Of a stretch of DNA of 64,000 nucleotides, positions 25,242 through 27,678 are shown piece by piece. The DNA is taken from positions 62,001 to 126,000 of the forward strand of contig NZ_SBIV01000006.1 of NCBI RefSeq assembly GCF_004765795.1, given 5' to 3'. The notes under the pieces are model-generated. The model searched no databases, was not told the origin of the DNA, and was given only the letters and a program-made list of their open reading frames with translations. The position numbers and the translations under genes were made by a program. The DNA comes from Halorussus marinus. Its GTDB lineage: Archaea > Halobacteriota > Halobacteria > Halobacteriales > Haladaptataceae. The stretch's first letter is position 1, and the number at the start of each line of letters is the position of its first letter.

Positions 25242-25646
25242 TCACTCGCCCTCGACGCCGGTCACGTCGAACCCGAGCTCGCGGACGTCGTCGAGGATCG
25301 CCGCCTGATCGGCGTCGGCCTCGTAGTAAAACACCACGTCGAAGGTGCCCTCCCGCAGGAGCTGTTGGCACTCCCAGACGAACTCCTCGTCGTCGAGGGT
25401 GAGCCCCTGGTGTTGATTCGACGCGAAGTCGGTGTCGTCGGTGCCCGAGTAGACGAACGTGTCCTTGGGTTCGTAGCCGGCGTGCTCGGCGATGACCTCG
25501 CCCACGTCGACGGTGAGCTGGTGCATCTCGATGTCGTCGCTCCCGTCGAGGTCGGTGTGGACGATCGCGCCGTTGAGCCGGATCTCGCCGGGTTCGAGCA
25601 GCTGTTTCGTCCGGCGATACAGGTCCTCGTCGAGCGTCTCGGTCAT
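25242..25646 (-). CDS. DUF5778-like haloarchaeal protein
   Basis: A 134-residue acidic protein resembling the haloarchaeal DUF5778 family (from memory). Recognisable stretches: LDEDLYRRTKQLLEPG, LNGAIVHTDLDGSDDIEMHQLTVDVG, SNQHQGLTLDDEEFVWECQQLL and EADADQAAILDDVRELGFDVTG. Function unknown; no membrane segment or signal. Its TATA-like element GTTTAACG lies within a 15-bp palindrome (25666-25680), 20-34 nt before the start. Confidence 0.8.
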   Translation of the reverse strand: MTETLDEDLYRRTKQLLEPGEIRLNGAIVHTDLDGSDDIEMHQLTVDVGEVIAEHAGYEPKDTFVYSGTDDTDFASNQHQGLTLDDEEFVWECQQLLREGTFDVVFYYEADADQAAILDDVRELGFDVTGVEGE

Positions 25647-26075: not shown

Positions 26076-26999
26076 ATGTTACCGTGGGTACAGCGCCGAG
26101 CGCGGGCCGCCTACGAGCGTCTCCTCAAACGCGAAATTTCCGGCGGGCCGACACACGTCGCGGTCATTCAGGACGGCAACCGCCGGTACGCCGACCGGAA
26201 CGGCGGCGAGGCCCCCGACGGCCATCGCGCGGGCGCCCAGACGACCGAGCGGATGCTCGATTGGTGCCGGGACCTCGGCGTCGAGGAGCTGACGCTGTAC
26301 GCGTTCTCGACCGAGAACTTCGACCGACCCGACCACGAGCGCGAGGCCCTCTTCGACCTGCTCGAACGGAAGCTCTACCAGTTCGCCGACGACGACCGGG
26401 TCCACGACGGCGAGGTCCGGATCCGGGCCATCGGCGACGAGACGATGTTGCCCGAGAGCGTCCGAGAGGCGATCCGGTACGCCGAGCGCCGGACCGACGA
26501 CTACGACCGGTTCACGCTCAACGTCGCGCTGGCGTACGGCGGTCGAAACGAGCTACTGGGGGCCGCCCGCGACGTGGCCCGCGCGGTCGAGGACGGCGAC
26601 CTCGACCCCGACGATATCGACGTCGGCGAGATCGACAACAGGCTCTACGACGACCCGCTCCGGGACGTCGATCTCATCATCCGGACCGGGGGCGACGAGC
26701 GCACGTCGAACTTCCTGCCGTGGCACGCCAACGGCAACGAGGCCGCGGTGTTTTTCTGTACGCCCTACTGGCCGGAGTTCTCGAAGGTGGACTTCCTCCG
26801 GGGAATCCGGACCTACGAGTCCCGCGAGGAGTCCTGGCGCCGGACCAAAGTCAAGCGCGCGGCCGCGCTCGTGCGGGCGGTCGGCGGCGTCGAACTCCGG
26901 GAGGCCCGCGAGGTCATCGACCGGTTCCGGGACACGCTCCCGGAGGGGACGACCGTCGACGAACTCGACGCGGAGGGCGAGAGCTCGTCGGCCGATTGA
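26076..26999 (+). CDS. uppS: Polyprenyl diphosphate synthase (cis-prenyltransferase, UppS family), catalytic type
   Basis: A 307-residue cis-prenyltransferase making long polyprenyl diphosphates used for lipid-linked glycans. Catalytic motif VIQDGNRRYADRN contains D33; YAFSTENF, LNVALAYGGRNE and LIIRTGGDERTSNFLPWHANGNE follow. A C-terminal extension of about 50 residues beyond the normal end (ARE-rich) is present. Haloarchaea attach glycans via dolichyl phosphate, for which this is the likely chain-building enzyme. A divergent paralogue faces it in convergent orientation 70 bp downstream. Confidence 0.94.
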   Translation: MLPWVQRRARAAYERLLKREISGGPTHVAVIQDGNRRYADRNGGEAPDGHRAGAQTTERMLDWCRDLGVEELTLYAFSTENFDRPDHEREALFDLLERKLYQFADDDRVHDGEVRIRAIGDETMLPESVREAIRYAERRTDDYDRFTLNVALAYGGRNELLGAARDVARAVEDGDLDPDDIDVGEIDNRLYDDPLRDVDLIIRTGGDERTSNFLPWHANGNEAAVFFCTPYWPEFSKVDFLRGIRTYESREESWRRTKVKRAAALVRAVGGVELREAREVIDRFRDTLPEGTTVDELDAEGESSSAD

Positions 27000-27069
27000 G
27001 GTCAGAGGGCCCCGCCCGGCTCAGCGTCCGAACTTCCGTCGCCGTGCTTCGCTCGCGACGCCGTTCGGC

Positions 27070-27678
27070 CTACCGGCCGAACCGCCGCTGGCGGTTCTCG
27101 TAGTCGAGTAGCGCGCGGAGGTAGTCGCGCTTCCGGAAGTCCCGCCAGTTCACGTCGGTGAAGTAAAGCTCCGAGTAGACCGACTGCCAGATCATGAAGT
27201 CCGAGAGGCGCTCGGCGCCGGTCTTGATAACCAGATCGGGGTTTTCGGGGAACACGAGGTGTTGCTCGACGTCGGTCTCGTCGATCTCCTCGGGGGCGAG
27301 TTCGCCCGCCTCGACGTCCTCGGCGATCCGGGCGACCGCGCCCGCGAACTCGTGTTTGCCGCCGAGTCCGACCGATACCTGGATCGGCGCGTCGGCCCGC
27401 TGGACGTCCTCGGGACTGCGGACCGCCAGCGGGCGGGGCGCGCTCACGCGTTCGAGTTCGCGTTCGAGCGTCGGGACCGCGCCCTCGTCGAGGACGCTGA
27501 CGTACACGGTTACCCGGTCGGCGTCGTACTCGAAGGCCCACTCGAAAAACTCCTCCAGCGTCCGGTAGGCGCCCTGTTCGAGCAGGTCGCGCTCGGTGAT
27601 GACGACGGCGACGTGGCTGGGCGGGGTCGCCTCGTGGCGACGCAGGCGGGCGGCCAGATACCGGTCGTACAGCCCCAC
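27070..27678 (-). CDS. Divergent cis-prenyltransferase paralogue lacking the catalytic motif
   Basis: A 202-residue UppS-family protein. Aligned by eye with its neighbour, HVAVIQDGNRR becomes HVAVVITERDL, so the catalytic Asp is Thr28 and the substrate-binding Asn and Arg are gone; FSTEN is replaced by VSVLDE. The C-terminal core is kept: VIKTGAERLSDFMIWQSVYSELYF. The protein ends RRFGR, which contains an RxG motif (R199-F200-G201). These losses and gains match the non-catalytic NgBR/Nus1-type subunit of heteromeric cis-prenyltransferases; function is inferred. It faces the catalytic enzyme 70 bp away, converging on it. Confidence 0.88.
   Translation of the reverse strand: MGLYDRYLAARLRRHEATPPSHVAVVITERDLLEQGAYRTLEEFFEWAFEYDADRVTVYVSVLDEGAVPTLERELERVSAPRPLAVRSPEDVQRADAPIQVSVGLGGKHEFAGAVARIAEDVEAGELAPEEIDETDVEQHLVFPENPDLVIKTGAERLSDFMIWQSVYSELYFTDVNWRDFRKRDYLRALLDYENRQRRFGR

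Follow-up and report, generated by a model that had tools for sequence, protein, structure and literature searches.

Two convergent cis-prenyltransferase genes of Halorussus marinus as putative subunits of one heteromeric enzyme

Two cPT genes and their products

The window, a stretch of 64,000 nucleotides of Halorussus marinus contig NZ_SBIV01000006.1, contains two convergent genes of the cis-prenyltransferase (cPT) family followed by a gene for a DUF92 membrane protein (Table 1). The two cPT genes are the only PF01255 genes in the H. marinus genome (3.76 Mb, 99.97% complete). A first-pass annotation had placed a catalytic paralogue in convergent orientation 70 bp from a non-catalytic one, with a DUF92 gene alongside, and the coordinates, the DGNRR motif of the catalytic paralogue and the DUF92 match all bear this out.

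Table 1. Features of the cPT locus (positions are those of the window)
Feature	Position	Strand	Properties
Catalytic cPT subunit (putative), 307 aa	26076..26999	+	DGNRR present (Asp33), RxG absent
Spacer between the convergent cPT genes, 70 bp	27000..27069		Sequence
Non-catalytic cPT subunit (putative), 202 aa	27070..27678	-	DGNRR absent, Thr28 in place of the catalytic Asp, RRFGR at the C-terminus
DUF92 membrane protein, 436 aa	27832..29142	+	PF01940, 194.5 bits

In profile searches the catalytic protein covers the whole PF01255 domain (226.3 bits, residues 31-252) and scores 233 bits against the UppS equivalog TIGR00055, above its cut-off of 109.55. The site that aligns with the bacterial RxG motif reads SWR instead, and the chain continues into a helical extension of about 50 residues at the C-terminus. 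Its AF2 model (pLDDT 77.3) has the cPT fold and finds its best structural match in human DHDDS chains, with 31% identity over 300 columns and a loose superposition (rmsd 8.2).

The non-catalytic protein is read from a GTG start codon and begins with GLYDRYLAARLRRHEA, which leads directly into the cPT fold; neither its sequence nor its AF2 model contains an N-terminal transmembrane segment. The match to PF01255 is confined to the C-terminal half (residues 97-201, 96.8 bits, E 1.8e-27) and, together with the presence of the protein in 145 of 145 haloarchaeal genomes, argues that the open reading frame is real and not a chance one. As the first-pass annotation had described from the letters, the protein keeps the C-terminal core, TGAERLSDFMIWQSVYSELYF, and the RRFGR end while lacking DGNRR; in the alignment of HVAVVITERD with HVAVIQDGNRR, Thr28 faces the catalytic Asp of its neighbour. 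The AF2 model also has the cPT fold (pLDDT 81.9, pTM 0.78), although residues 163-170 and the C-terminal tail are modelled with low confidence; the Foldseek matches listed are cPTs, including human DHDDS and UppS.

The non-catalytic protein scores 90.2 against TIGR00055, below the cut-off of 109.55, through its C-terminal half only and without the catalytic Asp of DGNRR. NCBIfam holds no dedicated model for the non-catalytic subunit, and many UppS models match it below their own cut-offs, so that automatic annotation may label it as an active UppS. Since both haloarchaeal copies match UppS models, work on N-glycosylation in these organisms may be handling half an enzyme.

Distribution and descent of the pair

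PF01255 is present in all 292 haloarchaeal genomes searched, with at least two matches in 291 of them; the exception (G071), a draft of 120 contigs, shows the non-catalytic gene alone. Full-length matches to the non-catalytic protein in the 145 haloarchaeal genomes mentioned above are mostly 61-81% identical to it. Across the phylum, the non-catalytic profile matches 294 of 296 genomes. This profile can also catch the catalytic paralogue, yet nearly all genomes give two matches, and the one-match genomes, when searched again with PF01255 (G497 left out), all have the non-catalytic gene. The two negative genomes have no PF01255 gene whatsoever; they belong to one genus of family f17 (G298 and G306) and are each about 91% complete, so that either true loss or missing sequence may be responsible. 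The non-catalytic gene stands alone in two drafts, G415 and G071, where the missing catalytic gene probably reflects assembly gaps. The co-occurrence of the haloarchaeal paralogues that the first-pass annotation had proposed to examine is upheld, a non-catalytic gene without its partner being seen in these two drafts and not in many genomes. These figures describe relatives sampled inside the phylum of H. marinus.

Where haloarchaea have extra cPT copies, these are catalytic in most such genomes, and G192 also has a second non-catalytic copy. G067, G104, G192 and G218 (loci L202, L208, L203, L204 and L212) have two or three catalytic copies and one non-catalytic copy, apart from G192 with two of each, and a single helper may serve several catalytic subunits in such haloarchaea. 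A third PF01255 match in another genome (L211, G002:C1:478925-479599) spans the whole profile at 103 bits without DGNRR, lies inside a 622-aa open frame and is possibly another divergent cPT. Short, fast-evolving non-catalytic copies with the RxG end kept occur in 164-168 aa open frames in one family (L191 and L192, from G308 and G300). In genus g7 (G006, G011, G037, G064, G071, G096, G102 and G132) the non-catalytic match falls into two pieces that meet near residues 83-100, and the open frames run to about 250 aa, indicating an insertion midway along the subunit.

A tree built on the C-terminal half joins 29 of the 31 non-catalytic rows in one clade with support of 98/96, which includes haloarchaea, Methanosarcina-type genomes (G482, G449 and G389) and other families. 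The two rows outside it are long and come from one family, and monophyly of all 31 is not rejected (AU p 0.34). Of the cPTs of G482, three in number, one is nearly identical to chain 7vq9 and closely matches MM_0014. The remaining two, one with DGNRR but no RxG and the other with RxG but no DGNRR, are by exclusion, as a pair, the orthologues of MM_0618 and MM_1083 of Methanosarcina mazei. In the account of Emi et al. (2019) given in PMC8131916, MM_0618 and MM_1083 are described as a heteromeric cPT with C45-50 products. Taken together, the clade and the orthology by exclusion assign the haloarchaeal pair to that heteromeric kind, with orthologous subunits and the same split of DGNRR and RxG. 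The genomic arrangement differs, in that the two cPT genes lie far apart, with DUF92 elsewhere, in the Methanosarcina-type genomes examined, whereas the haloarchaeal genes are usually adjacent and convergent. A separate origin of the haloarchaeal pair was rejected on the single 98/96 clade. The suggestion that a haloarchaeal pair would extend the Methanosarcina case consequently stands for the kind of pair and falls for a separate extension, for by the tree the haloarchaeal non-catalytic protein is the same ancestral subunit as in the rest of the phylum. The Methanosarcina-type heteromer was already known; what is added here is the same pair in nearly all sampled genomes of the phylum.

A two-subunit archaeal cPT has reportedly also been found in Archaeoglobus fulgidus (Af1219/Af0707). 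Genomes of family f14, which may be the Archaeoglobus group, show the same separation of DGNRR from RxG.

Active-site motifs divided between two proteins

In bacterial UppS a single chain holds DGN(G/R)R as well as a C-terminal RxG. Our alignments place a DGNRR-type motif and the RxG together in the single chain of the homodimeric E. coli UppS (ispU), which has the same fold and the same PF01255 domain, whereas here the two motifs lie in two proteins. All 147 unique non-catalytic proteins from loci across the phylum end in R[FY]G followed by exactly one residue, and none of them has DGNRR. Conversely, RxG is found at the site aligned with E. coli R242-F-G244 in none of 161 unique DGNRR proteins, where the usual letters are S-W-R/Q; as the catalytic rows were picked by having DGNRR, only the RxG count is informative for that set. 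Of the other active-site residues, the non-catalytic subunits keep Glu213 in 147/147 and Arg200 and Ser202 in most rows, have Lys in place of Arg194, and have lost Arg77 with the DGNRR loop. Read from these alignments, each of the two proteins lacks active-site parts that are present in the other. The loss of RxG from the catalytic protein, which the first-pass annotation did not mention, is the stronger half of this evidence.

The motif losses and retentions, the conservation, the co-occurrence, the orthology and the cPT fold of each monomer are seen directly. The motif split, the near-universal co-occurrence and the orthology to the published Methanosarcina heteromer strongly support the earlier identification of a non-catalytic cPT subunit, presumably one acting in trans. 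Our preferred reading, with a probability of roughly 0.88, is that the two genes encode both subunits of a heteromeric cPT in which RxG would complete the active site in trans. This reading is well supported, and such an enzyme is known in kind and conserved through the phylum. The 26076-26999 protein would contribute the loop with the catalytic Asp as well as the substrate tunnel, while being unable to complete the IPP/Mg site alone. Its partner would be a pseudo-enzyme, joined to it at the standard dimerisation surface of cPTs, so that the C-terminal RRFGR could reach across the interface and complete the IPP/Mg site. The assembled enzyme would add IPP units to an all-trans primer, which is probably GGPP or FPP, and so make a medium-chain polyprenyl diphosphate, the likely source of the dolichyl phosphate that serves as sugar carrier in N-glycosylation.

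In human DHDDS/NgBR, the NgBR tail with its RxG extends over the dimer interface and reaches the active site of DHDDS (PMC7573591). The archaeal pair resembles this system on both sides: DHDDS, like the archaeal catalytic protein, lacks RxG and has a C-terminal extension, and NgBR, which has no catalytic loop, ends in RLG plus one residue just as the archaeal partner ends in R-x-G plus one residue. NgBR has a membrane segment, whereas the 202-aa partner has none. The combination of features that marks NgBR/Nus1, a cPT fold without the catalytic Asp and a C-terminal RxG, is found in the non-catalytic protein. Nevertheless, the partner profile matches NgBR at E 0.0015 as against 1.9e-27 for E. 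coli UppS, and sequence similarity does not single out NgBR as the closest relative. NgBR sits on a branch of 6.5, too long for the tree to place it; a clade of partners and NgBR is not rejected (AU p 0.44), and one of catalytic proteins and DHDDS has AU p 0.41. The label "NgBR/Nus1-like" is thus apt for layout and presumed mechanism, in which by analogy the haloarchaeal partner would work like NgBR, and carries no statement of shared descent. NgBR and the haloarchaeal protein have the string VITE in common, which was dismissed as too short to carry meaning.

Yeast Nus1 lacks a canonical RxG (PMC7573591), so the mechanism does not depend on this motif alone. Moreover, the homodimeric archaeal cPT MM_0014 is active although it has no RxG (PMC8131916), so that absence of the motif by itself need not abolish the activity of a homodimer. 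This enzyme, together with the weakly active homodimers that human DHDDS forms alone (PMC7573591), gives some room to the reading that the catalytic protein is an active homodimer and its paralogue a regulator of rate or chain length that supplies no part of the active site. A mere regulator would need no RxG, however, and the motif is kept in 147/147 partners and lost from 161/161 catalytic proteins; in addition, the orthologous Methanosarcina pair is reported as heteromeric in the passage of PMC8131916 that deals with it. The regulator reading is accordingly regarded as improbable. Still less probable is that the paralogue is a separate homodimeric protein which binds prenyl diphosphate through the cPT fold, for example as a sensor or transfer protein. 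The partial retention of the IPP-site residues Arg/Lys194, Arg200, Ser202 and Glu213 would suit such a role, as would the fact that the non-catalytic gene does not always adjoin the catalytic one, but its steady co-occurrence with a catalytic protein missing the complementary motif speaks against it, as does the published heteromer in which its orthologue is a subunit. Finally, a decaying duplicate, a pseudogene in the making, might be suspected because the DGNRR loop with its catalytic Asp is lost, as is Arg77; this is refuted by a mean column identity of 80% across 55 haloarchaeal sequences, in which entire blocks are invariant, and by retention throughout the phylum.

The heteromeric reading predicts that neither protein is fully active alone and that loss of one gene has the same phenotype as loss of the other. 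With DGNRR and RxG parted throughout the phylum, these proteins provide a large natural test set for how an RxG tail acts in trans, the mechanism in question in human DHDDS/NUS1 disease.

Conserved neighbours and a possible carrier-lipid module

The arrangement seen in H. marinus recurs widely. In 69 of 80 named haloarchaeal loci a convergent catalytic gene lies no more than 4 kb away, with a median stop-to-stop gap of about 120 bp over the 68 measured, and in 77 of the 80 DUF92 is transcribed divergently from the non-catalytic gene, with a median start-to-start distance of 163 bp. For other families of the phylum, 20 regions were compared: the divergent DUF92/non-catalytic pair is present in 11 (G320, G307, G329, G313, G297, G344, G311, G514, G496, G500 and G422) and the convergent cPT pair in 10 (G329, G313, G297, G331, G294, G429, G435, G396, G496 and G500). 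DUF92 is present as a single copy in each of 18 genomes (18/18).

The DUF92 protein is a probable functional associate of the cPT and not one of its subunits. Plant VTE6, a phytyl-phosphate kinase, belongs to DUF92. It is tempting, if rather speculative, to regard the catalytic cPT, the RxG subunit and DUF92 as one ancestral carrier-lipid module of the phylum, in which DUF92 might phosphorylate a prenyl or polyprenyl monophosphate. Such a kinase step could serve primer making or salvage, or carrier recycling. DUF92 might also anchor the soluble cPT to the membrane, as the NgBR membrane segment does in eukaryotes. As a conserved neighbour, DUF92 offers a lead to an unassigned step in the dolichol metabolism of archaea.

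Upstream of the catalytic gene lies a gene for a DUF5778 protein (25242-25646, minus strand; PF19090, 216.6 bits), which occupies the same place in 54 of the 80 named haloarchaeal loci.
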